From Nitriliruptoraceae bacterium (lineage in GTDB: Bacteria; Actinomycetota; Nitriliruptoria; Nitriliruptorales; Nitriliruptoraceae), in NCBI GenBank assembly GCA_003565155.1, contig PXDB01000073.1:1-60633 (forward strand): DNA of 60,633 bases, read 5' to 3'. Below the pieces are notes generated by a model. The model was not told the origin of the DNA and made no database searches. It saw only the letters and a program-made list of their open reading frames with translations. Below, piece by piece: positions 269-31,693 of this stretch (the stretch's first letter is position 1; each line of letters opens with the position of its first letter). Both the position numbers and the translations under genes were made by a program.

Positions 269-829
269 GTGACCAGCGCACCGATCCCCGGTGATCCGGC
301 ACCCCCACTCGATCTGCCGCGACTGGACGGTGCTCACGCGCGGCTTAGCGACCTGCGTGGCCGTCCCGTCCTGGTGTCCTTCCTGCGACACGCCGGTTGA
401 CTGATCTGCCGATCGCACCTCGTGAAGGTGCAGCAGCGGTGGAACCGGTGGGACCAGCTCGGCGCGGCAGCCGTGTTCGTGACCTTCGACGAACCCGAGC
501 TGCTGCAGCGCACGATGTTCGATGACATCGAGGTGGCCGCGCTGCCCTTCGCGGTCGTGGTCGACCGCGATCGCACCACCTACCGTGCCTGGGGGCTTCG
601 GCGGGCCCGTCGCCGGGAGATCTGGCTGGATCCGAACGTCTACCGCACCTACTGGCAACTGCTCCGCGCCGGTGATCGGCTCCGCCGGGGTGGCTCGGAC
701 CTGATGCAGTTCGGCGGTGACTTCGTGGTGGATCCGCAGGGCACCGTCGCCTACGCCCGGCCCCAGGAGCGCGACGATCGGCCACCGGTGGGGGAGCTGT
801 TGTCCGCAGCCACACGGGCTGTGAGCTGA
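269..829 (+). CDS. SelU/peroxiredoxin-like selenoprotein, in-frame TGA = Sec44
   Basis: Encodes a 186-residue thioredoxin-fold protein of the AhpC/TSA peroxiredoxin-like family (SelU / PRXL2 type), probably a thiol- or peroxide-reacting enzyme; the substrate is unknown. The frame is open from GTG 269 to the stop at 829 apart from TGA 398-400. The local sequence is FLRHAG-U-LIC-RSHL, where Cys homologues have FLRHFGCPFC, so Sec sits exactly at the first redox position of a UxxC motif. The C-terminal half keeps the family's LPFAVVVDRDR and GGDFVVD blocks. A GAGAGGG ribosome site lies 6 nt before the start. It sits beside tRNA-Sec and selD. Read without Sec recoding, only a false downstream start at 422 would be annotated. 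Confidence 0.85.
398..431 (+). promoter_or_regulatory. Candidate bacterial SECIS after Sec44 codon
   Basis: The TGA (398-400) is followed after 14 nt by a 6-bp stem GCACCT / AGGTGC (415-420 / 426-431) closing a CGTGA loop (421-425). The apical loop begins 20 nt after the TGA, within the spacing known for SelB-binding bacterial SECIS elements, and holds a G-U pair of residues as expected. Found by eye; folding energy not calculated. Confidence 0.55.
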
Positions 830-871
830 TCCGCCGGGCCAGGGGCACTGGCATCGAGGTGCCTGCAGCAC

Positions 872-943
872 GGCGCAGGTCGGTGGTGGGGCCATGGCGC
901 AGGTCGGTGGTGGGGCCGGGGCGCGGGTCGGTGGCGCCGCCGT
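872..943. repeat. Three tandem copies of a 24-bp GC-rich unit
   Basis: Units at 872-895, 896-919 and 920-943 begin GGCGCAGGTCGGTGGTGG; the first two differ at the last two bases and the third is more diverged. A partial fourth copy follows. The array sits between the SelU-like gene and the 3' side of tRNA-Sec, so it would be in the trailer of a tRNA-Sec transcript. Confidence 0.75.
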
Positions 944-963
944 GGCGCGCGCGGACCCGGTAG

Positions 964-1056
964 CGGAGGTGGACGGGAATCGAACCCGCCGGGGACGCAT
1001 CGCGTCCCCCACCGGTGTTGAAGACCGGGGGCCCCACCAGGGAACCGGACACCTCC
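964..1056 (-). tRNA. selC: tRNA-Sec (anticodon UCA)
   Basis: Read on the minus strand, the RNA begins GGAGGTG and ends CACCTCC plus a G discriminator. The anticodon stem CCGGT/ACCGG encloses loop CTTCAAC with anticodon TCA (plus-strand 1019-1021). The D stem can form 6 bp (GGTTCC/GGGGCC with wobbles), as in bacterial tRNA-Sec. The long variable arm is a perfect 8-bp hairpin GGGGACGC-GAT-GCGTCCCC. The T loop is TTCGATT. About 93 nt is typical for tRNA-Sec and far longer than an ordinary tRNA. No CCA is encoded; GCTA follows the acceptor. It lies between a selenoprotein gene and selD. Confidence 0.95.
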
Positions 1057-1241
1057 GAGCACGTCGGTGCTCGCGGCGCACCGTAGCGGTCGCGCCGGCG
1101 TCGTCGTCGGGGGCTGCTCGTGTGGCGGCGAGTGCGCCGGAGGCTGGGCCCGCGGGGGCGGGTTCGCCTCGGTTATCCGTGCCGGCAGCGGTGCCCATCC
1201 GTCATACTGGCCGCCGTCCCTGGCACCGACACCGAGGGCCC

Positions 1242-2444
1242 GTGTCCACCACATCCCCCACCACCACGCCGCGGTTGAGTTCGCTGAGTCACGGCGCCGG
1301 CTGCGCCTGCAAGCTCAGCCTGGACGAGCTCCAGGGGATCCTCGCCGGGGTGTCCTGGCCGGGACACGACGATCTGCTCGTGGGGCTTGCCAGCGGTGAC
1401 GACGCCGCGGTGTGGCGGCAGGGCGACGGGCGGGTGATGGTCGCCACCACGGACTTCTTCACCCCGCTGGTCGACGAGCCCCGGGACTGGGGCCGGATCG
1501 CCGCCACCAACGCGGCCAGCGACGTCTACGCCATGGGCGCGACACCACGCGTCGCGCTCAACCTGGTCGGCTGGCCGGGCGATCTGGACTTCGACGTGCT
1601 GCGACAGGTGCTCGACGGCGCCGTCGAGGTGGCGGGCGCCGCCGGGTACGTGATCGCGGGCGGCCACTCGATCGACGCGGTCGAGCCCTTGTTCGGCCAG
1701 GTCGTGATCGGCGACGCCGACGAGGCGGCGCTGCTCACCAACGCCCGGGCGCGTCCGGGCCAGGCGATCGTGCTCACCAAGCCGATCGGCACCGGCGTGG
1801 TCACCACCGCGCTCAAGCGTTCGGACCCGCTGCCCCCCTCGGCCACAGCCGGCGGCGCGGCGCCACGCGTCGACGTCGGCACCGGGACCGACGCGGGCAC
1901 CGGGCTTGATGCCGGTACGGGAGACGTCGCCGCTATCGACACCGCGTCCGTCCTCGCCCCCGCCTACCGGGCCGCGGTCGCGGAGATGACCCGGCTCAAC
2001 CACGATGCTGCTCGGGTCGCCAGCGCGCACCGGGCCACCGCCGCCACCGACGTCACCGGGTTCGGGCTGCTCGGCCACCTCCACCGGCTGACCACGGCCA
2101 GCGGCCTCGCCGCGACGGTGCACGCCGACGCGGTGCCGCTGCTGCCACACGTCGGTGCCCTGCTCGACGCGGGCTTCGTCCCCGGCGGCTCGCAGCGCAA
2201 CGCCGAGCAGGCTGCCCGCTACCTCGACGGCGGTCCTCCCTCGGACCGCACCCGCCTGCTGCTGGCCGACGCCCAGACCTCCGGGGGGCTGCTGTTCACC
2301 GTCGACCCCGACGCCGCCGATGCGGCGGTGTCCGACCTCATCGACCTCGGACACCGCGCCGCCTGGATCGGCACCACCTCGACGGGTGCGCCCGGCAGCA
2401 TCGAGGTGGTCGGGGACGTGGCGGCAGCGGCGGGTCCTCGGTGA
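1242..2444 (+). CDS. selD: Selenide, water dikinase SelD
   Basis: Makes selenophosphate from selenide and ATP, the selenium donor for SelA. The 400-residue protein opens with the SelD motif SHGAGCACKL, so the catalytic position is Cys, not Sec. The family blocks ATTDFFTPLVD, NAASDVYAMG and TDVTGFGLLGHL follow in order, and the ADAQTSGGLLF block is near the C-terminus. GTG 1242 is chosen because GAGGG lies just upstream and the motif starts about 15 residues in. An unusual Gly/Thr/Asp-rich insert with repeated GTG(T/L)DAGTG units lies at roughly residues 198-228. The stop overlaps the selA start. Confidence 0.95.
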   Translation: MSTTSPTTTPRLSSLSHGAGCACKLSLDELQGILAGVSWPGHDDLLVGLASGDDAAVWRQGDGRVMVATTDFFTPLVDEPRDWGRIAATNAASDVYAMGATPRVALNLVGWPGDLDFDVLRQVLDGAVEVAGAAGYVIAGGHSIDAVEPLFGQVVIGDADEAALLTNARARPGQAIVLTKPIGTGVVTTALKRSDPLPPSATAGGAAPRVDVGTGTDAGTGLDAGTGDVAAIDTASVLAPAYRAAVAEMTRLNHDAARVASAHRATAATDVTGFGLLGHLHRLTTASGLAATVHADAVPLLPHVGALLDAGFVPGGSQRNAEQAARYLDGGPPSDRTRLLLADAQTSGGLLFTVDPDAADAAVSDLIDLGHRAAWIGTTSTGAPGSIEVVGDVAAAAGPR

Positions 2445-3916
2445 GCGACCCCCGACGTGCCGTACCGGCGCTCGGCCGCCTGGTGACCCACCCGGCCGTG
2501 GTCGCCGCCGTCGCCGAGCACGGGCGTGCGCCGGTGATGGCGGCGTTGCGCGGCGTGCTGGAACACGCGCGCACGGCCGCCGCGAGCGGGACACCGGTCG
2601 AAGGTGAGGACGTCCTCGTCGCCCACGCGCTCGCCGCGATCGAGGATCGCCCGACGCCGCAGCTCACGCCGGTGATCAACGCCACCGGCGTGCTGCTCCA
2701 CACCAACCTCGGCCGGGCGCCGCTGTCGGTGGACGCCGTGGCCGCGCTGACGGCGGCCGCGGGCACGGTCGACCTCGAGGTGGACCTCGACAGCGGGCAG
2801 CGGGGCGGCCGGGACACACCGATCCGTGACACCCTCGTGCGCCTGACCGGCGCCGGATCGGCCTTCGCGGTCAACAACGGGGCGGCAGCCCTGGTCCTGG
2901 CGCTGTCGGCGCTGGCGGGTCCGGGTGGTGTCGCGGTCAGCCGTGGTGAGCTGGTGGAGATCGGCGGTTCCTTCCGGATCCCCGACATGGTCCGCTCGGC
3001 CGGCACGCAGCTCGTCGACGTCGGTACCACCAACCGGACCCATATCGCGGACTACCGGGCGGCGCTGGCCGCGGGGGCCAGCGCGATCCTGCGCGTGCAC
3101 CCGAGCAACTTCCGGATGGAGGGCTTCGTCCACCGCCCCACCACCGCTGAACTGGCCGAGGTCGCGGCGGCGGCCGGGGTGCCCTTGATCGACGACCTCG
3201 GCTCGGGGTTGCTGCGCGCGCATCCGACGGCAGCCGACGAGCCGGTCGTCGCCGAGGCGATCGCGGCCGGCGCATCGGTGGTGGTGTTCTCCGGCGACAA
3301 GCTGCTGGGCGGACCCCAGGCCGGCATCATCGCCGGCGATGCCGAGCTCGTGGAGCGCTGTCGACGTGCGCCGCTGGCACGCGCGCTACGTCTCGACAAG
3401 CTGCGGCTCGCCGCGCTGGCGGCGACGCTGACCGCCTACGAGCGCGACGCCCGCACCGAGCTCCCCGTGTGGGCGATGGCCGAGGCGGACGTGGCCGTCC
3501 TGCGCCGCCGGGCGGAAGCCGTGGTCGCCGGCTGCAGCGCGCGCGGGGGGGATGCCGACATCGAGGTGGTGGCGCTCGACGCCGTGCTCGGTGGTGGCTC
3601 CACACCGGGGGCCACGCTGCCGAGCGTAGGGGTCGCCCTGGCCGTGGGCACCGCGGCCGACGAGCTCGCCCGTGCGCTGCGCACCGGCACGCCGTCCGTG
3701 GTGCCGCGCATCGTCGAGGAGCGGGTGGTGCTCGACCTCCGGTCGGTCCCCCCGGCTGCGGATGCGCAGCTGATCACCGCTGTCGGTGCGGTGCTCGAGG
3801 CGCTCCCGCCGGCCGACCGCGGCCAGCTGACCGACCGCGGTGAGCCATCGGGCCACGGTGACACCGCCCCCACCTGCCACGAGGGCGACCCCGCCAGGGC
3901 TCGGGACAGCGTCTGA
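2441..3916 (+). CDS. selA: L-seryl-tRNA(Sec) selenium transferase SelA
   Basis: A PLP enzyme that turns seryl-tRNA(Sec) into selenocysteinyl-tRNA(Sec) using selenophosphate. The 491-residue protein has the N-terminal tRNA-binding domain, the INATGVLLHTNLGRAPLS block, and the PLP lysine in FSGDKLLGGPQAG near residue 287. Length matches bacterial SelA, with a disordered extra tail of about 30 residues. GTG 2441 overlaps the selD stop by 4 nt, and its own stop shares one base with the selB start, so the three genes are translationally coupled. Confidence 0.96.
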   Translation: MSDPRRAVPALGRLVTHPAVVAAVAEHGRAPVMAALRGVLEHARTAAASGTPVEGEDVLVAHALAAIEDRPTPQLTPVINATGVLLHTNLGRAPLSVDAVAALTAAAGTVDLEVDLDSGQRGGRDTPIRDTLVRLTGAGSAFAVNNGAAALVLALSALAGPGGVAVSRGELVEIGGSFRIPDMVRSAGTQLVDVGTTNRTHIADYRAALAAGASAILRVHPSNFRMEGFVHRPTTAELAEVAAAAGVPLIDDLGSGLLRAHPTAADEPVVAEAIAAGASVVVFSGDKLLGGPQAGIIAGDAELVERCRRAPLARALRLDKLRLAALAATLTAYERDARTELPVWAMAEADVAVLRRRAEAVVAGCSARGGDADIEVVALDAVLGGGSTPGATLPSVGVALAVGTAADELARALRTGTPSVVPRIVEERVVLDLRSVPPAADAQLITAVGAVLEALPPADRGQLTDRGEPSGHGDTAPTCHEGDPARARDSV

Positions 3917-5889
3917 TGCGGGTGGTCGCCACCGCCGGGCACGTGGACCACGGCAAGAGCGCGCTGGTCCGCTCGCTCACCGGCCGTGAGCCGGACCGCC
4001 TCGCTGAGGAGCACCGTCGCGGCTTGACCATCGATCTGGGGTACGTCTGGACGGACCTCGCCGCGGAGGGGCGCAGCGTCACGGTCGCCTTCGTGGACGT
4101 CCCGGGGCACGACCGTTTCCTGACCAACATGCTCGCCGGTGTCGGCGCCGTGCAGGACGTGTTGTTCGTCGTGGCCGCCGACGACGGCTGGTCGGCACAG
4201 TCCGAGGAGCACCTGGAGATCGTGACGCTGCTCGGTCGGCGCATCGTGGCGGTGGCGGTGACCAAGGCCGCGCCGGCCGGTGCGAGCCGCACCGCCGAGG
4301 TCGTCGCCGAGGTCCGTGACCGGTTGGACCTCGCCGGGGTCGTCGACACCCCGGTGCTCCCCGTCGATGCGCTCGAGCCCTCCGGCCTCGAGGAGCTGCG
4401 GGCCGCCCTTGTGACCGCCCTGGCGCCCGCTGCCACCGACGCTGCGGCCACCACCGCCACCGCAGGCACCAGCCACGCCAGCGTTGCCGGCGCCACCAGC
4501 GACGCCAGCAGCACGGCGGGCCGCTTCGCCCGACTGTGGGTCGACCGGGTGTTCACCGCCCCGGGTGCGGGCACCGTGGTCACCGGCACCCTCGACAGCG
4601 GTCGGCTCCAGCGTGGCGCGCAGGTCGTGGTCCTTCCGGCCGGCGTCCGGGGTCGGATCCGCGAGCTGCGCAGCCTCGAGGTGCCCGTGGACGACGTGAC
4701 GGCCACCGCCCGGGTGGCCGTCGCCCTCGCCGGTGTGGACGCTGCGCAGGTCGACCGCGGTGATGTCCTGGTCGGCGTGCGCGGCGCCGGCACGCCTCAG
4801 GGGCTGGCCACCACGGCGCTCGACGTGGCGATGACGGCGCTGCCCCACGGGGTGGTCGGCCAGCGCGGTGCCTGGCAGCTGCACCTCGGCTCCGCCCGGC
4901 GGGACGCGCGCTTGCTGCCGCTGCTCGGTGACCTGCAGCCGGGGGAGCGGGGCCTGGTCCGCATCGAGGTGGAGCGGCCGCTGCCCGCTCGGGTCGGTGA
5001 CCGCTTCGTGCTGCGGGAGGTGGGGCGACGTACCACCGCTGGAGGGGGCACCGTCCTGGAGGTCGCACCACCCGACACCCGTCGCGGGGTGACCGCCCGG
5101 CTGGTCCACGCCGAGGCCCTGGAGCGCGTGCGTGATGCCGTAGCCCGTACCGACCGTGTCGCTGGGCTGGTCGCCTTGCGGGGCGGCGCTGCTGCCATCG
5201 ACGCTGTGGAGGACGCCATCGGTACGCCGATCGAGGCCGGGGTGTCGGACGTCGACCCGCTGACGTCGGTCGACGGGCTGCTGGTCGAGCGTCAACGGTT
5301 CGCCGGGTGGCGCGAAGCCGCCGTGGTCGCGGCGCGCGACGCGCCGGCCCTGCCCGAGTTCGGCGCCCCGATCACCTCCCGGGACCAGCTCGCGGCGGCC
5401 GTCACCGACCACGGGTGCCCGGCCGAAGTGGTCCCTGCGGTGCTGCGTGCTGCGATCGCCGACGGCGAGGTGGTGGACGTCGGCGGCCGCGTCGTCCACC
5501 GTCGCTACCACGACGACTACCGGACCGCCCGCCGGACCCGGCAGGAGCGGCTCCTGGCGGCGCTCGAGGGTCCGGGCGTGCGCGTGCTCGACGCCGACGC
5601 TGCCGAGCAGGTCCACGGCCTGCCGCGTTTCGAGCTGCAACCGCTGCTCGATGCGGGAACCGTCGTCCAGCATGGTGGTGTGCTGGTGACTCCTGCGGTG
5701 GTGTCGACGGCGGTGGCGCTGCTCGACGACGGGCCCGGTGCCGGGGGTGCAGCGTTCACCGCCTCGGATGCGCGGCAGGCGTGGGGGCTGACCCGCAAGC
5801 ACGCGATGCCGCTGCTCGAGCACCTCCGGGCCGTGGGACTCACCACCTTCGACGGCACGCACCACCGTCGGACCCGCGAACGGCGTTGA
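3916..5889 (+). CDS. selB: Selenocysteine-specific elongation factor SelB
   Basis: A GTPase that carries Sec-tRNA(Sec) to the ribosome at UGA codons marked by a SECIS hairpin. The 657-residue protein shows G1 AGHVDHGKS at residues 7-15, G3 DVPGH near residue 60 and, in place of the usual NKxD, a VTKA sequence near residue 115, as in SelB. EF-Tu-like beta-barrel domains follow, then winged-helix domains at the C-terminus for SECIS binding. An Ala/Thr-rich stretch (about 175-195) separates the G domain from domain 2. ATG 3916 overlaps the selA stop (TGATG). Converges with the GrdB-like gene after 32 bp. Confidence 0.96.
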   Translation: MRVVATAGHVDHGKSALVRSLTGREPDRLAEEHRRGLTIDLGYVWTDLAAEGRSVTVAFVDVPGHDRFLTNMLAGVGAVQDVLFVVAADDGWSAQSEEHLEIVTLLGRRIVAVAVTKAAPAGASRTAEVVAEVRDRLDLAGVVDTPVLPVDALEPSGLEELRAALVTALAPAATDAAATTATAGTSHASVAGATSDASSTAGRFARLWVDRVFTAPGAGTVVTGTLDSGRLQRGAQVVVLPAGVRGRIRELRSLEVPVDDVTATARVAVALAGVDAAQVDRGDVLVGVRGAGTPQGLATTALDVAMTALPHGVVGQRGAWQLHLGSARRDARLLPLLGDLQPGERGLVRIEVERPLPARVGDRFVLREVGRRTTAGGGTVLEVAPPDTRRGVTARLVHAEALERVRDAVARTDRVAGLVALRGGAAAIDAVEDAIGTPIEAGVSDVDPLTSVDGLLVERQRFAGWREAAVVAARDAPALPEFGAPITSRDQLAAAVTDHGCPAEVVPAVLRAAIADGEVVDVGGRVVHRRYHDDYRTARRTRQERLLAALEGPGVRVLDADAAEQVHGLPRFELQPLLDAGTVVQHGGVLVTPAVVSTAVALLDDGPGAGGAAFTASDARQAWGLTRKHAMPLLEHLRAVGLTTFDGTHHRRTRERR

Positions 5890-5921
5890 GCGCGGATCGA
5901 GGGTGCCGGTCGGCGCGCCTG

Positions 5922-6962
5922 TCAGCCCGCCCGCGGGACCTCGGGAGCGAACCGGCGGACGGTGCCGCCCGCGCTGGCCTCCGCGAGCAGCCCCAGGGCC
6001 GCATCGACCACGGCGCGTTGACGGTGTCGGTCCCCCACCGGCCCGATGGTGCGGCCCATCAGGTGCGGGGTCACGAGCGTGCGTGGCACCTGCAGTTGGA
6101 CCGCGCGGTGTTCGAAGGCGCGGATGAACACGCTCACGGTGGCGATCCCGATGCGCTCCAGGGCACGTGCGACGAGTCCGACCGACCCGTGGCAGACGGG
6201 TCAGGTCGCCACCAGGAAGCAGACATCGACGTCGCGGGCCGCCATGTACTCGGCCCACCGTGGTGCCACCTCACGTTCGAGGGTGCGCTGCGAGGTCGCC
6301 CCGGTGAAGGCGTAGTGCTCGTCGGCCAGCTCGAGACGTCCCTCCCGGGCCAGGTCGCGGAGGTGGCTGAGCGGGAAGACGGTGTCGGGGTCGCGCTGCG
6401 CGGTGCGCGCGTCGTAGCCGGGATGACGCGCCGTCAGCTGCGCCGTCGGCGTGGTGACGTCGATGGTGGACAGGGTCGGTGTGCCGTTCAGGAAGGCGCT
6501 GATCATGGACAGCGTCTGGGCCTGGGTCGGTCCGTTCGGGCCCATCGGGTCGTGGTCACGGTGGAACACGCCGCCCGCGGTGATCAGCGCCAGGCGTTGT
6601 GCAGCGACAGGACCACCCAGCGGGGCGAAGGGTGCGTCGTCGACCTGCGGCTCGGCGGGTTCGTCAGGGCTGTAGGCGGCCGCCTGGAGTGCGGCCAGGC
6701 GAGCGCGCAGGTGCTCGAGATCGCCGGTGTCCACCACCTCGCCGACGGTGGCGAGCACCGCGGCGATGGCGTCGGCGGCGTCCTCGTCCTCCAGGCCGGC
6801 GAGGTACTTGAACTGCATGTCCGCGTGCTCGCCGTAGTAGAAGGACCGCCGGAAGGCACGCATCGTCAGCGGTCGTGCGGCCCGCCGGGCAGCGGGGTCC
6901 TCGCCACGCGTGCCGTCGTCCGCGCCGTTGTGCGTGGGGTCGTGTCCCTCAGCCTCGCTCAC
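5922..6962 (-). CDS. GrdB-like selenoprotein, in-frame TGA = Sec254
   Basis: Member of the glycine/betaine/sarcosine/D-proline reductase selenoprotein B family. 346 residues if TGA at 6203-6201 is read as Sec. The frame runs unbroken on both sides: VAT-U-PVCHGSVGLVARALE matches the family block UPVCHQSVGLIARHLE. Upstream are ALITAGGVFHRDHDP and a VFPLSHLRDL block; downstream PRTLVTPHLMGRTIGP. True GrdB works in a clostridial complex with GrdA and GrdE; none is seen here, so the actinobacterial role is likely different and not known. GTG 6962 overlaps the stop of the deiodinase-like gene by 14 nt, so both are co-translated. Confidence 0.85.
6172..6203 (-). promoter_or_regulatory. Candidate SECIS after Sec254 codon
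   Basis: After TGA (6203-6201) and 10 nt comes a 7-bp stem ACGGGTC / GACTCGT (6190-6184 / 6178-6172, one wobble) with loop GGTCG (6183-6179). The loop resembles the GGUC loop of the E. coli fdhF SECIS and starts 18 nt after the TGA. A competing 7-bp hairpin GACCCGT-CTGCC-ACGGGTC starts inside the TGA itself. Confidence 0.6.
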
Positions 6963-7674
6963 GCCAGATCTCCTCCGCCCGGACGAACTCGTCGTAGCTG
7001 CGGGGCCCGTTGCGCCGGAGGCGTCGGTCGAAGGCCTCCCGGTCCTGATCGCGGTACTCGAGCTGCTCGCTGATGTAGGGGGCCCTTCCGCCCTGGGCCG
7101 GTCGGTGGCGGCGCTGGGACTCGAACCTGGTCAGGAAGGCGGCCACGTTCGCCGCCGAGGTCCAGTCGGCCCGGTAGATCAGCCGCCCACCGCGCCCGAT
7201 CACGTAGGTCATGTTCGGGAGCAGCCCGTAGGCGTGGTGCGCGGTCCCCGCGAGGTCGTCGAGCAGGATGGGGCGACGGATGCCGACCTCGTCGCGCAGC
7301 AGCCGTGCGTTGGCCCGCTTGACCTCGAAGGAGGTGTGATGACCGACGTGCTCACCGGGGTGGGCCTCCCGGGTGTAGAGGAAGTACCAGGCCGCGTCCC
7401 TGTGCTGGTCTGCGGCTGCGTCGAGCAGAGGACCCTCCGCCGCGCAGTAGGGTCAGGTGAAGGACCCGAACTCGACCACGACGGTGCGCTGCCGCCACAC
7501 CGAGGACAGGGCGATCCGCTGGCCGGTATCGAGCTCGGTGGCGACGATGTCAGGAGCCGGCTGCCCGACGTGCAGGAGGTCGGGCCACGCCGCGAACTCA
7601 CGGTCGTCCGCCCCGGAGGCGACGTACCCATCGAAGCTGGCGTAGTTGTACGCGGCGATCGCATCCGTGGTCAT
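6949..7674 (-). CDS. Deiodinase-like redoxin selenoprotein, in-frame TGA = Sec74
   Basis: A 241-residue thioredoxin-fold protein related to the iodothyronine deiodinase family (T4_deiodinase). The core reads VVVEFGSFT-U-PYC, comparable with the animal FGSCTUPPF, followed by YFLYTREAHP, where Glu103 and His105 correspond to the conserved deiodinase EAH, and then TYVIGRGGRLIYRADW, matching the family's C-terminal strand. The Sec codon is TGA 7455-7453. A Cys at +3 makes a UxxC redox pair absent from animal enzymes. ATG 7674 is preceded by AGAGGG. The bacterial substrate is unknown; reductive dehalogenation or a thiol-redox role are both possible. Overlaps the GrdB-like gene. Confidence 0.85.
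7425..7455 (-). promoter_or_regulatory. Candidate SECIS after Sec74 codon
   Basis: After TGA (7455-7453) and 12 nt comes stem GCGGAG / CTCTGC (7440-7435 / 7430-7425, one G-U) with loop GGTC (7434-7431); one more G-U pair can extend it. The loop starts 19 nt after the TGA and again is GGUC, as in the GrdB-like gene. Confidence 0.6.
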
Positions 7675-8646: not shown

Positions 8647-10568
8647 CGTTCCGATCGTCGTCGCGGGGTGCGGTCGTACAGCGCTCGCCGCACCCGGAGG
8701 AGCTCCGCGACCGACCAGGCCTGGAACGGGGCGCCGGTCGCGTGGTGGGGCGGATCACCGTCCGCGGTCTCCGACACCGCGCCGACCCCCCAGTCGGCGA
8801 GGTGGCGTTCGAACGGCTCCAGGACGGCGCCCACCTCCACCCCGGTACGCAGCGCCGCGTCGACGAACGGGCCCACCAGCCAGGGCCACACCGTCCCCTG
8901 GTGGTAGGCACGGTCCCGGGTGGCGCCGTCACCGCGGTGGCGTCCGAGGTAGTCGGCATCGTCGCCGGCGAGGCTGCGCAGCCCCAGCGGCGTCAGAAGC
9001 GCGCGGGCACACCGCTCCACCACCGCCCGGTCGTCGAGCGGGGCGTAGGGCAGCGAGACGGCCAGCAGCTGGTTCGGCCGCAACGAACGATCGTCACCTT
9101 CGGGGCCGTCCACCACGTCCAGCACGTCCCCCTCGACCACGAACCGCCTGCGCAGCGTCGTGGCCGCACGGCCGGCCAGGGCGTGCAGGTCCGCGGCGTC
9201 CTCGCCGAGCAGTTCCGCGAGCAGCGCGGTGGTGGTCAGCGCGTTCACCCACAGGGCGTTGACCTCGATCGGCTTGCCGTGGCGCGGGGTCACGGGTGTG
9301 CCGTCGATGCGCGCGTCCATCCAGGTCAGCGCCACCCCCGCTGCGCCCTGGCGCAGCAGCCCGTCCGCCGGGTCGACGCCGATCCCGAACCGGGTGCCGT
9401 GCACGTGGTGGTCCACGATCCCCCGGAGCCCCGGCAGCAGCGCGGCGGCCAGGTCGGTGTCGCCCGTGGCGGCGACGTGCCGGCCCAGCGCGTGCACGAA
9501 CCACAGGGTCCCGTCCACGGTGTTGTACTCGAGCTGCCCCGTGTCGGCGGTGTTGGCGAGCATCCCCTCCGACAGCCCCGCCGCTGCCCGTGCCAGCAGC
9601 GCCCGACCCTCCTCGGCCCGGCCGGTGGACAGGAACAGCCCCTCGTAGCTGATCATCGTGTCGCGGGACCACTCCCCGAACCACGGGTAGCCGGCCACCA
9701 CCGTCGGGCCGTCGACGATGAAGGCGTCGGCCGCCAGGACGAGCTGCTGGTCGATCGGGTCACCGGGATCGGCGTCGGCGCCGACCAGCAGTGCACCGGC
9801 GCGTCGGCGCGCGGCATCCACCATCGCGGTCGCGGGCGGGAGCTCGTCAGCGAGGTCGTCCGCCCAGGCCCGGACCTCGGCCACCTCGCCGATCCCGAGC
9901 TCGGCGACGAACCGTCCGGCGTGGAACAGGTCCTCGGTCGCGGTGAGGCCCCGGGCCGCCTCCTCGTCGTGATGGACGCCGAGGTACCACGTGCCGTCCG
10001 GGACGAAGCCGGGACCGGACACGCGGTAGCGATCCTCGAACACGAACCCATCAGCGGTCCGCGGGAGCTCCGGCGTCGCGCCGGCCGCGCGCTCCCCGTG
10101 GACGTCCCGCCAGGTGCACAGGGCTTCCAGCTCCAGCCGGACACCTCCGCCCGCGGACAGCAGTCGGTGGGTGATCGCCACACCGGGACGGCCGTGCGCA
10201 CACGCGAGCTCGCGCTCGAGGACCACCTCGCCGACCTGCCAGCGCCACCGCGGCACACCGTCGGCCAGGCTGAAGGCCGCGAGGTGGTGGTGCCCGGTCG
10301 GGGCGAGCGCACCATCGGCCCAGCGGTGGGTGGCGAGCGGGACGCGCCGGTCGCCGAGGACCAGCACCGCGTCGAGCGAGGCCAGGGCGAGCATCCTTCC
10401 GCCCGGCGGCGCGGTGGCCACGACCAGCAGGCCGTGGTAGCGGCGGGTCCGCAGGCCCGACACGGTGCCCATCGCGTAGCCGCCGCAGCCGTCGGTGACC
10501 AGCCACTCGCGGCTCGCCCCGGCCGCCAGCTCGGTGGTGGTCTGTGGACCGAAGGTCAGCTGCGTCAC
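8643..10568 (-). CDS. Archaeal/bacterial-type glycogen debranching enzyme
   Basis: Amylo-alpha-1,6-glucosidase-like protein of 641 residues that removes glycogen branch stubs. The N-terminal beta domain starts with REWLVTDGCGGYAMGTVSGLRTRRYHG, split here as REWLVTDGCGGYA and RTRRYHGLLV. The catalytic (alpha/alpha)6 barrel has WFGEWSRDTMISYEGL, QLEYNTVDGTLWF and LTWMDARIDG, with the acidic residues expected in this family. The C-terminus has YHQGTVWPWLVGPF. GTG 10568 overlaps the stop of the upstream glycosidase gene (GTGA), and its stop overlaps nnrE. Confidence 0.9.
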   Translation of the reverse strand: MTQLTFGPQTTTELAAGASREWLVTDGCGGYAMGTVSGLRTRRYHGLLVVATAPPGGRMLALASLDAVLVLGDRRVPLATHRWADGALAPTGHHHLAAFSLADGVPRWRWQVGEVVLERELACAHGRPGVAITHRLLSAGGGVRLELEALCTWRDVHGERAAGATPELPRTADGFVFEDRYRVSGPGFVPDGTWYLGVHHDEEAARGLTATEDLFHAGRFVAELGIGEVAEVRAWADDLADELPPATAMVDAARRRAGALLVGADADPGDPIDQQLVLAADAFIVDGPTVVAGYPWFGEWSRDTMISYEGLFLSTGRAEEGRALLARAAAGLSEGMLANTADTGQLEYNTVDGTLWFVHALGRHVAATGDTDLAAALLPGLRGIVDHHVHGTRFGIGVDPADGLLRQGAAGVALTWMDARIDGTPVTPRHGKPIEVNALWVNALTTTALLAELLGEDAADLHALAGRAATTLRRRFVVEGDVLDVVDGPEGDDRSLRPNQLLAVSLPYAPLDDRAVVERCARALLTPLGLRSLAGDDADYLGRHRGDGATRDRAYHQGTVWPWLVGPFVDAALRTGVEVGAVLEPFERHLADWGVGAVSETADGDPPHHATGAPFQAWSVAELLRVRRALYDRTPRRRSER

Positions 10569-15290: not shown

Positions 15291-17918
15291 ATGGGAGCGC
15301 TGCAGGACCTCGCCGCTGCAGGACAGAGCGTCTGGTACGACAACATCCGTCGGGCCCTGATCGACAGCGGTGAGCTGGCCCGCTACCTCGACGCCTACGC
15401 GGTCACCGGGGTGACCTCCAACCCGACCATCTTCGAGCAGGCCATCGCGGGCGGCGGTGACTACGACCAGGGCATCGCCGCCGCGGTGAGCGAGGGGATC
15501 GACGATCCGGAGGTGGTCTTCTGGCGTCTTGCCATCCGCGACATCCAGGACACCGCCGACCTGCTGGCGCCGATCCACGAGCAGACGCAGGGTCGCGACG
15601 GCTACGTGTCCCTGGAGCTGCCGCCACGGCTCGCGCACGACACCGACGGCTCGATCCAGATGGCGCTCGAGCTCGCACGCCGGGTCGACCGCGCCAACCT
15701 GATGGTCAAGGTCCCCGGGACGGCGGCCGGGATGGGTGCGCTGGAGGAGCTGATCGCCAGCGGGATCAACGTCAACGTCACCCTGCTGTTCTCCCTGTCG
15801 CAGTGGTCGGACACCGCCGAGGCCTACCTCCGCGGTCTCGAGCGGCGCCGGCAGGCCGGCCAGGACCTCGACGTGGCATCCGTCGCGTCGTTCTTCATCA
15901 GCCGCATCGACGCGGCGGCGAACCAAGAGCTCCCCGAGCAGCTCCAGAACCGTCTGGCGGTGGCCAACGCGCAGCTCGCCTACAGCGCCTACCTCGACCT
16001 GTTGGACAGCGACCGTTGGCAGGACCTCACCGCGGCCGGGGCGCGCCCGCAACGGCTGCTGTGGGCCAGTACCTCGGCGAAGGACCCGCGTCTCGATGAC
16101 GGCCACTACGTCCGGGCGCTGGCCGCCGACGGCACCGTGAACACGATGCCCGAGCACACGATGCTGACCTTCGACCGCGACGGGGCGGTGACCGAACGCC
16201 TGCGTCGTGACACCGCCGAGGCCGAAGCCGTCGCGGCCGCCGCCAGCGACGCGGGCGTCGGCTTGGAGTCGCTGGGGCGGCGGTTGCAGCACGAGGGCGA
16301 CGCCAGCTTCGCCGCCTCGTTCGACAACCTGCTGGCGTGCATCCGCACCAAGCTGGCGGCCATGCAGTCCGCCGCCGAGCGGACCGAGGCCCGGCTGGCG
16401 CCCATCGCCGGTGAGGTCGCCGACGCGACGGCGGATCTCCAGCGCCGCGAGGTCGCGTCGCTGCTGTGGAAGCGAGACCACACCGCCTGGCAGGACGACC
16501 CCACCGAGGTGGCCGACCGGCTCGGGTGGCTGACCGCACCGCAGGAGCTGGCCGAGGAGGCCGACGACCTCGAGCGCTGGGCTGAGCAGGCGCGCGCCGA
16601 CGGGCTGACCCACGCCGTGGTGCTCGGGATGGGCGGGTCGAGCCTGTTCCCGCTGGTGGCAGCCCGCACCCTCGCCCGGGCCGAACGGGGGCTGGAGCTG
16701 CACGTGCTGGACTCCGTCGACCCGCAGGCCATCGCCCGTCAGGCCGGCGCCCTCCCCCCTGAGCGGACGTTGGTCCTCGCCTCCTCGAAGTCCGGGACGA
16801 CCGCGGAGACGCGGACGCTGCTGGAGTGGTTCTGGCAGCGGCACCCCGACCCCGCGAACTTCGTCGTGATCAGCGACCCCGACACCCCCCTGGCCCAACT
16901 CGGCCGTGAGCGCGGCTTCCGGCGCATCTTCGCCAACCGGTCGGACATCGGTGGCCGCTACTCCGCGCTCTCCCACTTCGGGCTGGTGCCGGCGGCGCTG
17001 GCCGGGGCGGACGTCGCCGAGCTGCTCCGACGCGCAGGGTGGATGCTGTCCGCCTGCGCCGACTGCGTCCCCGACGACGGTCACCCCGGCCTCGAGCTCG
17101 CCGGCATCCTCGCCGGCGCCGTGACGGCCGGTCGGGACAAGCTGACCCTGCTCGTCGACCCCGCGCTGGACGGGTTCGGGATGTGGCTCGAGCAGCTGGT
17201 CGCCGAGTCGACCGGCAAGCACGGCACCGGTCTGCTGCCGGTGGTCGGCGAGCCGCTGGGACCGCCCGAGGTCTACGGCGACGACCGCCTGTTCGTCCAG
17301 CTCGGTGGAGACCCCCGCCAGCTGCACGCCCTGGCCGCGGCCGGCCACCCGACCTACCACCTGCCCGTGGACGGTCCGCTCGACCTCGGCGGCGAGGTGC
17401 TGCGGTGGGAGATCGCGATCGCGCTCACCGGGGCGGCGCTCGGCATCAACCCCTTCGACCAGCCCGATGTCGAGGCGGCCAAGCAGGCCGCCCGCCGGGC
17501 CCTGGACGAGGGCGTCGACGAACCCGAGGTGGAGCCCATCGCCCCGCTGCTCGCGCAACTGCAGGCCGGCGACCACCTGGTGATCCAGGCCTACGTCGAC
17601 CCGGAGGACCCGGTCGTGCCAGCGCTCGAGCAGGTGCGCCAGCGACTCCGCGACCGGGAAGGGGTCGCGACCACGCTCGGCATCGGTCCGCGCTACCTGC
17701 ACTCCACGGGCCAGCTGCACAAGGGTGGGCCGAACACCGGGGTGTTCCTGCAGGTGGTCGGCGATGACGGCGACCACGACCTCGACATCCCCGGCGAGCG
17801 GTTCAGCTTCGGTGCGCTCACGCGCGCCCAGGCCGCCGGTGACCTGGCGGCGCTGCGCGATCGCGGCCGCCGTGCCGCCCGTGTGTCGCTGGCGGAGCTG
17901 CTGCGCTCCGGCGACTGA
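15291..17918 (+). CDS. tal-pgi: Bifunctional transaldolase / glucose-6-phosphate isomerase
   Basis: 875 residues. The N-terminal part (about 1-365) is transaldolase: SVWYDNIRRALI, VTGVTSNPTIFEQAI, the Schiff-base lysine in NLMVKVPGT, and SVASFFISRID. The C-terminal part is a phosphoglucose isomerase: VVLGMGGSSLFPLV (sugar-phosphate loop), ASSKSGTTAETRTLLEWF, and HKGGPNTGVFLQV at the end. Both reactions join glycolysis and the pentose phosphate pathway. Fusions of this kind are known in actinobacteria and cyanobacteria. GAGGAGG lies 6 nt before ATG 15291. First gene of the pentose phosphate cluster. Confidence 0.95.
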   Translation: MGALQDLAAAGQSVWYDNIRRALIDSGELARYLDAYAVTGVTSNPTIFEQAIAGGGDYDQGIAAAVSEGIDDPEVVFWRLAIRDIQDTADLLAPIHEQTQGRDGYVSLELPPRLAHDTDGSIQMALELARRVDRANLMVKVPGTAAGMGALEELIASGINVNVTLLFSLSQWSDTAEAYLRGLERRRQAGQDLDVASVASFFISRIDAAANQELPEQLQNRLAVANAQLAYSAYLDLLDSDRWQDLTAAGARPQRLLWASTSAKDPRLDDGHYVRALAADGTVNTMPEHTMLTFDRDGAVTERLRRDTAEAEAVAAAASDAGVGLESLGRRLQHEGDASFAASFDNLLACIRTKLAAMQSAAERTEARLAPIAGEVADATADLQRREVASLLWKRDHTAWQDDPTEVADRLGWLTAPQELAEEADDLERWAEQARADGLTHAVVLGMGGSSLFPLVAARTLARAERGLELHVLDSVDPQAIARQAGALPPERTLVLASSKSGTTAETRTLLEWFWQRHPDPANFVVISDPDTPLAQLGRERGFRRIFANRSDIGGRYSALSHFGLVPAALAGADVAELLRRAGWMLSACADCVPDDGHPGLELAGILAGAVTAGRDKLTLLVDPALDGFGMWLEQLVAESTGKHGTGLLPVVGEPLGPPEVYGDDRLFVQLGGDPRQLHALAAAGHPTYHLPVDGPLDLGGEVLRWEIAIALTGAALGINPFDQPDVEAAKQAARRALDEGVDEPEVEPIAPLLAQLQAGDHLVIQAYVDPEDPVVPALEQVRQRLRDREGVATTLGIGPRYLHSTGQLHKGGPNTGVFLQVVGDDGDHDLDIPGERFSFGALTRAQAAGDLAALRDRGRRAARVSLAELLRSGD

Positions 17919-18001
17919 CGATGCCGCGACCTGCGTCGGGGCCACGGCATCCCCCCGTGTCCGTGGCCCCGGCGCACCATCGGACACCGACCCCGAACAC
18001 C

Positions 18002-18043
18002 CCACCAGCGACACCCCACCAGCGACACCCCGCCAGCGACACC
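18002..18043. repeat. Three tandem copies of a 14-bp unit
   Basis: CCACCAGCGACACC is repeated at 18002-18015 and 18016-18029, then with one change at 18030-18043, in the 146-bp gap between tal-pgi and gnd. No coding or operator role is evident; it lies just before the gnd ribosome site. Confidence 0.8.
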
Positions 18044-18064
18044 CCACCACCGCAGGAGCATCCC

Positions 18065-18937
18065 ATGAAGCTCGGCATGATCGGACTCGGCAAGATGGGC
18101 GGCAACATGGCCACCCGGCTCCGGCGCAACGGCCATGAGGTCGTCGGCTTCGACCGCGACCCGGACACCCGCGACGTGGGCTCCCTCGAGGAGCTGGTCG
18201 CCGCGCTCGACGGGGAGCCGCGCCGCATCGTGTGGGTGATGGTGCCCGCCGGCGCGCCGACGGCCGACACCATCACCGCGCTGGCCGATCTGCTGCAGTC
18301 CGGTGATCTGGTCATCGACGGCGGCAACTCGAACTTCCGTCACTCCCAGGCCCACGGCGACGCGCTGGCCGCGCACGGCATCAGCTTCATCGACGCCGGC
18401 GTCAGCGGCGGGGTGTGGGGGCTCGACGAGGGCTACTGCATCATGGCCGGCGGCGGGACCGACGACATCTCCGACGTGAGCGCGATCTTCGACGCGCTGG
18501 TCACCGACGACGGCTTCGCCCACGTGGGCCCGGTCGGTGCCGGTCACTTCACCAAGATGGTCCACAACGGCGTCGAGTACGGGATGATGCAGAGCTTCGC
18601 CGAGGGCTACGAGCTCCTGGCGGCCAGCGACCTCGACATCGACCTGCCGTCCGCCCTGGAGGTGTGGCGCCACGGGTCGGTCGTGCGCTCCTGGCTGCTG
18701 GACCTCTTCGCCGCCGCGGTCCACGCCGACCCGAAGCTGGACGGCGTGCGCGGCTGGGCCGAGGACTCGGGCGAGGGACGCTGGACCGTCGAACAGGCGG
18801 TCGAGCTGGCCGTGCCGGCGCCGGCGATGACGGCCGCGCTGTTCGCACGCTTCGCCTCCCGTCAGGACGAGGCACCGGCCATGAAGGCGATCGCCGTCAT
18901 GCGGAACGCCTTCGGTGGCCACGAGGTGCGGTCGTGA
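18065..18937 (+). CDS. gnd: 6-phosphogluconate dehydrogenase (decarboxylating), short NAD-type
   Basis: Oxidatively decarboxylates 6-phosphogluconate to ribulose 5-phosphate. 290 residues, the short GndA/YqeC-like form without the duplicated C-terminal helical domain. Rossmann motif GLGKMGGNMA at residues 6-15, catalytic tracts GGNSNFRHS, DAGVSGGVWG and GHFTKMVHNGVEYG with the catalytic Lys and substrate-binding Asn. GCAGGAG lies before ATG 18065. Its TGA overlaps the zwf GTG. Confidence 0.93.
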   Translation: MKLGMIGLGKMGGNMATRLRRNGHEVVGFDRDPDTRDVGSLEELVAALDGEPRRIVWVMVPAGAPTADTITALADLLQSGDLVIDGGNSNFRHSQAHGDALAAHGISFIDAGVSGGVWGLDEGYCIMAGGGTDDISDVSAIFDALVTDDGFAHVGPVGAGHFTKMVHNGVEYGMMQSFAEGYELLAASDLDIDLPSALEVWRHGSVVRSWLLDLFAAAVHADPKLDGVRGWAEDSGEGRWTVEQAVELAVPAPAMTAALFARFASRQDEAPAMKAIAVMRNAFGGHEVRS

Positions 18938-20334
18938 GCGAGCGTTCCGACGCCCTGGTGCTGTTCGGGGGCACCGGTGACCTCGCCCAGCGCAAGCTCT
19001 ACCCCGCGCTGTACGAGCTGGCACGCGCCGGCCGCCTGCCACGGCGGGTCATCGCGGTGGCGGCCTCGGAGTGGACGCTTGACGAGCTGCGGAAACGGGT
19101 CGAGGCAGCGGTCGAGCGGTTCGAGAGCGGCGCGCCGGACCGGGCGGCGCTGTCACGGCTGCTCGACGCCCTCGGCTACGTCTCGGGTGACTACCGCGAC
19201 CCGGGCACCTTCGCCGCGCTGTCCTCGGCGCTGGGCAACAGCGCGTGTCCCCTGCTCTACCTCGCCATCCCCCCGAGCCTGTTCGAGACCGTGACCGCTG
19301 GTCTGGCCCGCGCCGGGATCGCCGCGCGGGGTCGGGTGGTGCTGGAGAAGCCCTTCGGTCGCGACCTGGCGTCGGCCCGGGAGCTGAACCGGTGCGTGCT
19401 GGCGGCCTTCGACGAGAGCTCGGTGTTCCGCATCGACCACTTCCTGGGCAAGGACCAGGTGCTGGACCTGCTGGTGTTCCGGCTCGCCAACTCCCTGCTG
19501 GAGCCCGCGTGGAACCGCCACCACATCGCCAGCGTGCAGATCACCATGGCGGAGTCGATCGACGTGGAGGGGCGTGGCGCCTTCTACGACGAGGTGGGGA
19601 CCCTGCGCGACGTGGTGCAGAACCACCTGTTGCAGGTGCTCGCCCTGGTGGCCATGGAGCCCCCCGTGGACACCAGCGCCGACGCGCTGCGGGACGAGAG
19701 GGTCAAGGTCTTCCGCGCCATGCCCACCCTCGAGCCGGCGCAGGTGGTGCGGGGTCAGTACGTCGGTTACCGCGATGAGGACGGGGTCGCCCCCGACTCC
19801 GAGGTGGAGACCTTCGTGGCCCTGACCACCTCGATCGAGTCGTGGCGGTGGGCGGGTGTGCCCTTCACGATCCGGGCCGGCAAGGCCATGGCGGCCACCG
19901 TCACCGAGGTGGTGGTCGAGTTCAAGCGCCCGCCGCTGCGGTTCTTCGCCCGCTGCGATGCACCCCCACCGGCACCCAACCGCCTGCGGTTCCAGATCAA
20001 GCCCGGCGGAGAGGTCGGCCTCCAGATCCAGATCAAGGCCCCCGGCGGGGAGATGGTCAGCCACCCCGTGGAGCTGTCCTACCGCTACGAGGAGGAGGAC
20101 GGCACCCGGGAGGAGGCCTACGCGCGCCTGCTCGACGACGCGCTCGACGGTGACCAGCGGCTCTTCGCCCGTGCCGACGGGGTCGAGGAAGCCTGGCGCG
20201 TGGTCGGAGAGGTCATCGGGGCGGCCGGCGCCGTGCACCCCTACGAGCGTGGCACCTGGGGCCCGGACGCCGCAGCGCAGCTCCTGCCCACCGGCACCAC
20301 CTGGCACGTCCCGGAGGTCGCGCGCGATGGCTGA
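18934..20334 (+). CDS. zwf: Glucose-6-phosphate dehydrogenase
   Basis: First step of the oxidative pentose phosphate pathway; 466 residues, the usual length. N-terminal nucleotide motif LFGGTGDLAQRKLYPAL at residues 9-25; catalytic signature RIDHFLGKDQV; C-terminal WAGVPFTIRAGKAM substrate block with the conserved Lys. GTG 18934 overlaps the gnd stop (GTGA); the stop overlaps the next gene by 8 nt. Confidence 0.96.
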   Translation: MSERSDALVLFGGTGDLAQRKLYPALYELARAGRLPRRVIAVAASEWTLDELRKRVEAAVERFESGAPDRAALSRLLDALGYVSGDYRDPGTFAALSSALGNSACPLLYLAIPPSLFETVTAGLARAGIAARGRVVLEKPFGRDLASARELNRCVLAAFDESSVFRIDHFLGKDQVLDLLVFRLANSLLEPAWNRHHIASVQITMAESIDVEGRGAFYDEVGTLRDVVQNHLLQVLALVAMEPPVDTSADALRDERVKVFRAMPTLEPAQVVRGQYVGYRDEDGVAPDSEVETFVALTTSIESWRWAGVPFTIRAGKAMAATVTEVVVEFKRPPLRFFARCDAPPPAPNRLRFQIKPGGEVGLQIQIKAPGGEMVSHPVELSYRYEEEDGTREEAYARLLDDALDGDQRLFARADGVEEAWRVVGEVIGAAGAVHPYERGTWGPDAAAQLLPTGTTWHVPEVARDG

Positions 20335-21910: not shown

Positions 21911-22635
21911 GCATCGAGGTGCTGGAGACGCCGCAGACGTTGGCCGACCGCGCCGCGCAGGTGCTGGCCGAGCACCTGCGCTCGGCGATCCGGGCGCGTG
22001 GTCGTGCGACCATGGCGGTCTCCGGCGGCCGCACCCCCGAGGCCCTGCTCGCCGCGCTGGCCCGCCACGAACTCGCGTGGCAGCAGGTCCACGTGTGCCA
22101 GGTGGACGAGCGGATCGCCCCCGATGCGCACCCCGAACGCAACCTCGGGCTGCTGCAACGTGCCCTGTTCGGCCACCGCGCCGGGCCGGTGCCGCAGCTG
22201 CACGCGATGCCGGTCACGGCGACCGACCCGGGGACCGCCGCCGCCCGCTACGCGGGCCTGCTGGTGGCCCTGGCCGGCCGGCCGCCGGTCCTCGACGTCG
22301 TGCAGTTGGGGCTGGGCGTCGACGGGCACACCGCTTCCCTGGTGCCCGACGACCCGATCCTCGACGTCACCGACCGCGACGTCGCCGTGACGCAGCCCTA
22401 CCAGGGCCGCCGCCGGCTGACCTGCACCTTCCCCCTGCTGGCGCGCGCCCGACACCGGGTGTGGGTCGTCAGCGGGACGGACAAGGCCCCGGCGTTGTCC
22501 CGTGTCCACGCGGGTGACCTGCAGCTGCCTGCCGCCCGCGTGCCGCGACAGGACGCGCGGTGGCTCGTCGACCGTGCCGCCGCTGCCCAGCTCGACCCCG
22601 CCAACGTCCCGACCCTCGAGGAGCAACGACCATGA
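21907..22635 (+). CDS. pgl: 6-phosphogluconolactonase
   Basis: Hydrolyses 6-phosphogluconolactone made by Zwf. 242 residues of the DevB/SOL type: TMAVSGGRTPEALLAAL, CQVDERIAPDAHPERNLGLL, and QLGLGVDGHTASLVPDDPIL. ATG 21907 overlaps the fusion-gene stop (ATGA), and its own stop overlaps the tkt start in the same way. Confidence 0.94.
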   Translation: MSIEVLETPQTLADRAAQVLAEHLRSAIRARGRATMAVSGGRTPEALLAALARHELAWQQVHVCQVDERIAPDAHPERNLGLLQRALFGHRAGPVPQLHAMPVTATDPGTAAARYAGLLVALAGRPPVLDVVQLGLGVDGHTASLVPDDPILDVTDRDVAVTQPYQGRRRLTCTFPLLARARHRVWVVSGTDKAPALSRVHAGDLQLPAARVPRQDARWLVDRAAAAQLDPANVPTLEEQRP

Positions 22636-30440: not shown

Positions 30441-30872
30441 TCAGACGAAGGTGACGTGGTCCTCGAGGTGCACGCCCTTGTCGAGGGTCTTGTGCACGGG
30501 GCAGCTGGCAGCGACCTGGGTGAGTCGCGTGCGCTGGGTCTCGTCGAGGTCGCCGCGGATCGTGATGCGGCTGACGATGCGGTCGATGTAGCCGCGGTGG
30601 TGCGCCTCGCAGTCGGCGCAGTCGTCAACGTGGATGCGGTCGTGCTCGTAGGCCACCTCGATGCGCTCGACCGCCCAGCCCTTGCGTTGGGCGTACATCG
30701 ACACGGTGATGCTGGTGCACGCGGCCAGGGCACCGAGCAGGAGCTCGTAGGGGTTGGGGCCGGTGTCGGTGCCGCCCACCCCGGTGGGCTCATCGGCCGC
30801 CCACGCGTGACCGGAGGTGGAGCTGAGGCTGACGGCGTAACCTTCGGTCAGCTCGCCGGTGATGGTGTGCAT
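30441..30872 (-). CDS. OsmC family thiol peroxidase-like protein
   Basis: 143 residues. Both redox cysteines of OsmC/Ohr-type proteins are present, in LAACTSITVSMYA (about residue 52) and in ASCPVHKTL (about residue 124), with ANPYELL-like GPNPYELLLGALAA ahead of the first. It contains extra Cys/His residues in DDCADCEAHH. Likely reduces organic hydroperoxides, or acts on sulfur species. Upstream of the BTAD-receiver gene on the same strand and separated from the membrane genes by a strong hairpin. Confidence 0.9.
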   Translation of the reverse strand: MHTITGELTEGYAVSLSSTSGHAWAADEPTGVGGTDTGPNPYELLLGALAACTSITVSMYAQRKGWAVERIEVAYEHDRIHVDDCADCEAHHRGYIDRIVSRITIRGDLDETQRTRLTQVAASCPVHKTLDKGVHLEDHVTFV

Positions 30873-30916
30873 CGGTGTGCTTTCGGTCGCCGGGGCGTCG
30901 ATGCTGGCATGTCGGC

Positions 30917-30943
30917 GGGGTGGACGGTCGAACCGTCCACCCC
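30917..30943. terminator. Strong 12-bp hairpin, probable terminator
   Basis: Perfect inverted repeat GGGGTGGACGGT / ACCGTCCACCCC around a 3-nt CGA loop, in the gap between the membrane gene (ends 30965) and OsmC (starts 30872). No T-run follows, common in such GC-rich genomes. Confidence 0.65.
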
Positions 30944-30964
30944 GGTGCGGTCGCGGTGCGCCGG

Positions 30965-31672: not shown

Positions 31673-31693
31673 GATCGGACCTCTCGGTTGTGC

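Follow-up and report, generated by a model that had tools for sequence, protein, structure and literature searches.

Why should an uncultured actinobacterium hold, within about 7.4 kb, the genes for selenocysteine (Sec) decoding next to three redox genes that are each interrupted by an in-frame TGA? The stretch lies on contig PXDB01000073.1 (C73) of a Nitriliruptoraceae metagenome assembly (GCA_003565155.1; 3.52 Mb in 129 contigs, 83% complete, 4.9% contamination), and the entire contig of 60,633 nt, referred to below as the window, was analysed. Its seven genes are tRNA-Sec (selC), selD, selA and selB, together with genes for a SelL-like thiol oxidoreductase, a PrdB/GrdB-like protein and a deiodinase-like (DIO-like) protein. 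The sequence-only reading had seen here a Sec island with three selenoprotein genes; this observation is confirmed and its interpretation is partly supported. The overall explanation, which we consider very probable, is that UGA is read as Sec in all three genes with the help of downstream hairpins, that the DIO-like and PrdB-like proteins form a reductase pair, and that the SelL-like protein acts as a separate oxidoreductase.

The machinery for Sec decoding is present in full. The tRNA-Sec matches Rfam RF01852 at 73.5 bits (gathering score 47) and is the sole one of 12 matches to lie above the cut-off across the 3.52-Mb assembly. SelD and SelA both exceed their curated cut-offs, and SelB, which scores slightly below its cut-off of 242.25, carries the GTPase, SelB beta-barrel and SelB winged-helix domains. 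With the hairpin spacing given below, these features correspond to the Sec-decoding trait. The packing of tRNA-Sec, selD, selA and selB with three TGA-bearing genes, as first described, was borne out by ARAGORN, Rfam and Pfam/NCBIfam, with the correction that tRNA-Sec lies on the strand opposite to selDAB. The selD gene probably starts near position 1242, and not at the longer open reading frame start at 894, which would run over tRNA-Sec.

Each redox gene has one in-frame TGA ahead of its stop codon. Translation with TGA as Sec gives U44 in U-L-I-C (SelL-like), U254 in U-P-V-C (PrdB-like) and U74 in U-P-Y-C (DIO-like), in agreement with the UxxC motifs originally assigned to Sec44, Sec74 and Sec254, and alignments to relatives run across all three codons, so that the unbroken homology claimed for both sides of the TGA also stands. 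Among 61 related genomes, a count that includes the source genome (G000), the TGA is kept in the SelL-like genes of 20 (at least 54% identity; one, in G051, is split in two pieces), in the PrdB-like genes of 13 (at least 49% identity) and in the full-length DIO-like genes of eight. Genome contigs were also scanned for DIO relatives, with a Nitriliruptoraceae bin as the nearest named one (85% identity for the DIO-like protein). All 80 loci considered (the best 80 of 85) have TGA at the Sec column, and they are distributed over Actinomycetota, Acidobacteriota, Chloroflexota, Pseudomonadota, Myxococcota, Planctomycetota and other phyla. Two patterns were used, one lying off the Sec column and the other spelling Cys or Trp there; the scan therefore did not select for TGA.

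Standard annotation had been expected to yield truncated pieces or false starts, and it does. Among the database homologues listed (the best 120 of 254 for PrdB, of 594 for DIO and of 126 for SelL), 346 of 360 are cut at the Sec column within a tolerance of 8 residues, which shows how often such proteins are mis-annotated. All 120 PrdB-like homologues listed end ahead of the column, and 117 of 120 DIO-like and 109 of 120 SelL-like ones start past it; the window's own database entries are likewise shortened, to 253 aa (P0004) and 135 aa (P0244). Of the 14 listed homologues that span the column, ten have Cys (nine SelL-like, one DIO-like). Ser stands there in two distant SelL-like database proteins and Trp in two DIO-like ones (P0125, P0126), the latter probably a gene-calling artefact of the kind that a TGA=Trp table would give. 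A PrdB-like protein of Haematobacter also has Cys at this position, and Cys homologues aligned to the TGA are thus found for all three families. In a deltaproteobacterial bin (L159, 2935-7415), DIO-like paralogues occur in tandem, the Sec column being Trp in one of them and TGA in the others.

Purifying selection acts both ahead of and past each TGA: with four chosen partners per gene, all 24 pairwise comparisons of these parts gave dN below dS. Codon usage was scanned around 307 TGAs flanked on each side by 40 open codons. In this ranking the PrdB and DIO TGAs came second and third; ranks 1 and 4 are antisense to called genes. The SelL TGA ranked 18, because its upstream codons score poorly, and the SelL case consequently rests on homology and conservation. 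That sequencing errors produced the TGAs, or that the genes are decaying pseudogenes, is hardly credible: the source is a metagenome bin and DIO-like fragments occur in G040, G045 and G046, but many independent assemblies show the TGA at the same place and purifying selection continues past it. It is also highly improbable that TGA is read as another amino acid in a recoded genome, or passed by leaky read-through without selenium. The Trp in P0125 and P0126 would fit such a reading, but Cys homologues exist, tRNA-Sec, SelA, SelB and SelD are all present, and the hairpins past the UGA covary in the PrdB-like and SelL-like genes. Moreover, selD, selA and selB each terminate with TGA in the window, so the genome is not simply recoded.

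Selenocysteine insertion sequence (SECIS) hairpins are predicted shortly past each UGA. Folding energy was dropped as evidence for them, as it showed no enrichment over in-frame background in this GC-rich DNA; given that energy is uninformative, comparative evidence was used. The PrdB-like hairpin has a 7-bp stem and a 5-nt loop, such as GGUCG or CGUGG, and lies 17 nt past the UGA. Across 29 distinct sequences, 97% of cells pair and double changes occur in six of the seven pairs (28 cells), a covariation reached by none of 500 shuffles. Slid controls gave at most 47.8% paired cells and at most 10 double-changed cells, though in five pairs at +2. For the SelL-like hairpin, eight cells are double-changed, and both this count and the covariation score were reached by none of 500 shuffles. 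The DIO-like hairpin is near-invariant among actinobacteria (18 of 82 contexts), with one double change there and a second in L202, outside that 18-context alignment. On these alignments, compensatory changes appear strong for PrdB, fair for SelL and weak for DIO.

Synonymous sites give a second line of comparative evidence. Synonymous codon identity past the UGA is 0.88, 0.80 and 0.82 (SelL, PrdB and DIO), against 0.54, 0.58 and 0.61 in the remainder of each gene (permutation p 0.00015, 0.00005 and 0.0001 for the three families), and other 11-codon blocks are equally conserved in 0 of 57 cases for SelL and 1 of 82 for DIO. All three loops contain GU and in this resemble that of the E. coli fdhF SECIS. 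The spacing of 17-20 nt falls inside the 16-37 nt from the UGA that passages of PMC10778597 give for the apical loop of bacterial SECIS elements. Several counts weigh against the hairpins: among 120 in-frame windows from selA and selB, 85% (SelL), 75% (PrdB) and 17.5% (DIO) fold as strongly or more strongly; the SelL-like double changes fall in two of seven pairs, a spread reached by 209 of 500 shuffles; the DIO-like covariation is weak, its double change being reached by 30 of 500 shuffles; and 19 of 177 other 11-codon blocks of the PrdB gene reach the same conservation at synonymous sites.

Table 1. Features of the Sec stretch, in window coordinates
Feature	Position	Strand	Basis
SelL-like / peroxiredoxin-like thiol oxidoreductase gene, Sec codon 44 (UxxC)	269..829	+	translation, profiles, alignment
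In-frame TGA, predicted Sec44	398..400	+	translation, conservation in relatives
Predicted SECIS hairpin, SelL-like gene; loop CGUGA, 20 nt past UGA	414..432	+	comparative
tRNA-Sec (selC), anticodon TCA	963..1056	-	ARAGORN, Rfam RF01852
selD, selenophosphate synthetase	1242..2444 (start inferred)	+	TIGR00476 339.8 bits, cut-off 125
selA, selenocysteine synthase	2441..3916	+	TIGR00474 449.9 bits, cut-off 267.9
selB, Sec-specific elongation factor	3916..5889	+	TIGR00475 231.1 bits; SelB-wing_3, beta-barrel domains
PrdB/GrdB-like selenoprotein gene, Sec codon 254 (UxxC), ~105-residue N-terminal helical extension	5922..6962	-	
In-frame TGA, predicted Sec254	6201..6203	-	conservation, codon-usage scan
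Predicted SECIS hairpin, PrdB-like gene; loop GGUCG, 17 nt past UGA	6172..6190	-	comparative
Deiodinase-like (DIO-like) thioredoxin-fold selenoprotein gene, Sec codon 74 (UxxC)	6949..7674	-	
In-frame TGA, predicted Sec74	7453..7455	-	conservation, codon-usage scan
Predicted SECIS hairpin, DIO-like gene; loop GGUC, 18 nt past UGA	7424..7441	-	comparative

The DIO-like protein belongs to PF00837 (34 bits, gathering score 27) and scores 57 bits against NF038285, below the cut-off of 250. Its predicted structure (pLDDT 96.2) has the catalytic core of mouse deiodinase 3 as best match in the PDB (E 6.3e-11), and its Sec is aligned with the deiodinase catalytic position in 4tr3, an entry titled as a Sec-to-Cys active-site mutant. 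In its Sec within UxxC, its thioredoxin fold and its match to the mouse DIO3 fold, the protein is like the bacterial deiodinase-like selenoproteins (PF00837) treated in sections of PMC1088965 and PMC13188914, from which it differs in that its gene overlaps and pairs with a PrdB-like gene.

The PrdB-like protein falls in the GRDB superfamily (PF07355, 40.7 bits against a gathering score of 22), with the Sec/Cys column present, and its Sec column and UxxC motif align with those of the PrdB/GrdB family (PF07355, TIGR04483). It differs from that family in its N-terminal helical extension, in a TIGR04483 score (84.6 bits) far under the cut-off of 300 that defines D-proline reductase, and in the lack of a PrdA found with it. 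No PDB entry matched its predicted structure (pLDDT 84.1) at E <= 0.001 or its sequence at E <= 0.1. A true D-proline (or glycine) reductase subunit would account for the similarity to TIGR04483 and for the alignment of the Sec column with the TGA of Peptoclostridium PrdB; we regard this as very unlikely in view of the low score and of PrdA, which lies above the cut-off in none of the 61 genomes and has no match at all in the 83% complete G000. Given that no PrdA, the pyruvoyl subunit, was found, the protein is likely not a D-proline reductase.

Is the stretch a mobile unit? The suggestion of a transferable Sec-dependent redox unit was not borne out, and we consider horizontal transfer of the island as such improbable. 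In its favour, the selenoprotein genes adjoin the machinery, DIO-like and PrdB-like genes turn up sporadically in several phyla, and in Haloechinothrix aidingensis (L149, 10016-13944) a DIO-like gene stands beside selB, selA and tRNA-Sec. Against it, none of the hallmarks of a mobile element was seen: GC is flat across the window (0.70-0.75); no integrase or transposase was found in the 40 of 54 window gene models that were scanned (6 without any match); and plasmid records gave distant matches only, with best identities of 32.5% (PrdB-like) and 31.7% (DIO-like) in a search covering these two proteins and not the SelL-like one. rpoB had no match in this assembly.

The distribution of the arrangement also speaks against a travelling unit. 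The same gene set was sought in relatives, and the whole of it was seen elsewhere only in G002, of the same genus, where it is split over two contigs that each stop within selB; G001 and G004 have the left part only, with no PrdB- or DIO-like match. PrdB-like genes adjoin tRNA-Sec in G012, G020, G023 and G032 (in G012 and G032 only the end of the gene, at a contig edge), the selenoprotein genes lie away from selA in G007, G019, G027 and G031 within the stretches examined, and in other family members they either adjoin the machinery in different combinations or lie on separate contigs. G010 (L118, L119) has a mosaic Sec system: one contig bears SelL-selD-selB, with no selA match in the selD-selB interval, and another bears a further selD together with a divergent selA.

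The feature that recurs is the pairing of the DIO-like and PrdB-like genes. In the window, the former lies upstream of the latter on the minus strand and the two overlap by 14 nt. All eight genomes with a full-length DIO-like gene also have a PrdB-like match (in G032 in part only, at contig ends), and in six of these, G000 included, DIO is upstream of PrdB on the same strand with an overlap or a gap of at most ~65 bp; in G032 the two are 1.3 kb apart. Further afield, two Gammaproteobacteria have them as convergent neighbours, and in a Thermomicrobiales bin 2.3 kb separates them. Among 396 genomes drawn from across the phylum, 18 have a PrdB-like gene (E <= 1e-20) and seven have DIO, which carries TGA in four. 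All four of these Sec-DIO genomes also have a PrdB-like gene; three come from a single family, so that the result amounts to roughly two independent cases. In G162, from another family, the genes are 3.4 kb apart.

The alternative that the two proteins are functionally unrelated, and are neighbours since Sec-needing genes cluster, is possible, if doubtful. It would explain why PrdB-like genes stand beside tRNA-Sec and sel genes without an adjoining DIO-like gene in G012, G020 and G023, and why most DIO loci have no PrdB-like neighbour. It does not readily explain the pairing in G019, G028 and G031, where no sel gene lies in the stretch examined (in G057, the contig ends inside the gene), its occurrence in two Gammaproteobacteria, or the order and strand that actinobacterial pairs keep, with short gaps or overlap.

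A functional pair has to be set against a number of other results, all of which count against it or against the explanation as a whole. No PrdB-like neighbour is seen at 71 of the 80 DIO loci, judged on the available flanking DNA, which is often a short contig, and six of the nine loci that have one are contigs already in the relatives set. The two genes are on separate contigs in G023. Among the 13 genomes with PrdB-like genes, four have no DIO match, G020 has a distant match only and G045 fragments only. Weak PrdA-like matches exist in G035, G040 and G046, and the assembly is 83% complete, so that a gene may seem absent only because the bin lacks it. Sec insertion at the UGAs and a complex of the two proteins are predictions from sequence, and any substrate is putative. 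In G040, G045 and G046 (L019, L026, L027), the DIO-like gene is in broken fragments, which suggests its loss in some lineages.

With these reservations, the favoured explanation of the island can be put as a sequence of steps. SelD would make selenophosphate, with which SelA would turn Ser-tRNA-Sec into Sec-tRNA-Sec, and SelB would bind Sec-tRNA-Sec and the hairpin to deliver Sec at the UGA. The DIO-like and PrdB-like proteins would probably be made from one translationally coupled transcript and, with a thioredoxin fold and UxxC in the one and UxxC in the other, could act as one Sec-dependent reductase pair. In such a pair, the Sec of the PrdB-like protein would attack a putative substrate, and the Sec/Cys pair of the DIO-like protein would reduce the resulting oxidised centre. 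The SelL-like protein would work separately as a Sec/Cys thiol oxidoreductase, with a flavin disulfide reductase as its likely reductant. We raise, as a tentative idea that may well prove wrong, that the pair is a new two-component Sec reductase, in which a GrdB-type Sec nucleophile dispenses with a pyruvoyl subunit and is recharged by a co-transcribed Sec protein of deiodinase fold, and that this pair and the SelL-like protein, rather than formate dehydrogenase, keep Sec decoding alive in the lineage.

As regards formate dehydrogenase, no TGA-bearing gene was found among the TIGR01591 matches listed for G000, G001, G002 and G004, a listing outside which G003 falls, and many other relatives have TGA-bearing TIGR01591 matches. 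A Sec formate dehydrogenase is therefore likely absent from this genus. The recurrent pair, the lack of a listed selenoprotein formate dehydrogenase and the flavin and F420 oxidoreductase neighbours described below offer a concrete lead towards the substrates of these enzymes.

All three families are already known selenoproteins, and the stretch is mainly a well-supported new example of them. A 2005 marine survey (PMC1088965) already counted PrdB, Prx-like UxxC and deiodinase-like proteins among the selenoproteins; in the passages concerned, it only guesses at a redox role for the bacterial deiodinase-like proteins. Sections of a review (PMC13188914) list the same three families, and PrdB, Prx-like and deiodinase-like selenoproteins are counted in parts of PMC2398784. 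Co-located selenoprotein genes are known too, in the operons grdA-grdB, prdB-prdC, SAO and Tso (PMC13188914). The present stretch is like these in holding several such genes together; it differs in that the operon section of that review lists neither a DIO-like/PrdB-like pair nor any cluster that includes the complete Sec machinery. No description of the pair was found in the relevant passages of PMC13188914, PMC1088965 and PMC2398784, and no paper in the library searched joins Nitriliruptor and selenocysteine.

The third selenoprotein matches the AhpC/TSA profile and scores 100 bits against NF040769 (cut-off 120), and because it stays below this cut-off it is named SelL-like and not SelL. It resembles SelL-related (NF040769) and Prx-like UxxC proteins in the AhpC/TSA match and in having Sec or Cys at the same column, and differs from the SelL-related ones in the lower score and in its single Sec (UxxC). 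A MerA- or Lpd-like flavoprotein gene lies within 5 kb of SelL in seven of 14 loci, directly downstream in three from one genus, and it is this proximity in several relatives that suggests a flavoprotein as electron donor of the SelL-like protein. Directly upstream of SelL, four of the 14 loci have an F420-dependent PPOX-class gene; the window's contig, which begins 268 nt before SelL, has none. Recurrent neighbours over the 80 DIO loci are mostly overlapping-frame noise, with one 12-locus cluster that resembles MFS transporters by eye only, and eight frames from seven loci that are MerA/Lpd-like flavoproteins. The flavoprotein link thus appears weak for DIO and better for SelL.

The window has a flavoprotein of this kind, away from the Sec stretch: past a VTT-domain membrane protein (37640-38260, plus strand) comes a MerA/Lpd-like FAD oxidoreductase extended at its N-terminus by ~165 residues (39073-41013, plus strand), relatives of which are found in the vicinity of SelL-like genes in other genomes. 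In L187, ~1.3 kb separates a DIO-like gene from a flavoprotein reading frame whose N-terminal part is long.

A few other features of the window were recorded. ARAGORN calls a tRNA-Arg at 8737-8831 (plus strand) within a glycogen debranching gene of the opposite strand; the call is probably false, as Rfam at the gathering threshold reports none there. A second redox-type cluster (30441-36355, minus strand) comprises OsmC, a CRP-type regulator, DUF3179 and a redoxin. The called DUF3179 frame contains no TGA; selenoprotein members of this family are mentioned in a section of PMC13188914. Pentose-phosphate genes stand between DIO and PrdB in G162 (L263, including G6PD) and at 15-25 kb in the window, and a G6PD match was found at only five of 121 loci searched. 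In the window, these genes form a row on the plus strand (15291-24659) of a transaldolase-PGI fusion, 6PGD, G6PD, a ROK-phosphatase fusion, 6PGL and transketolase.

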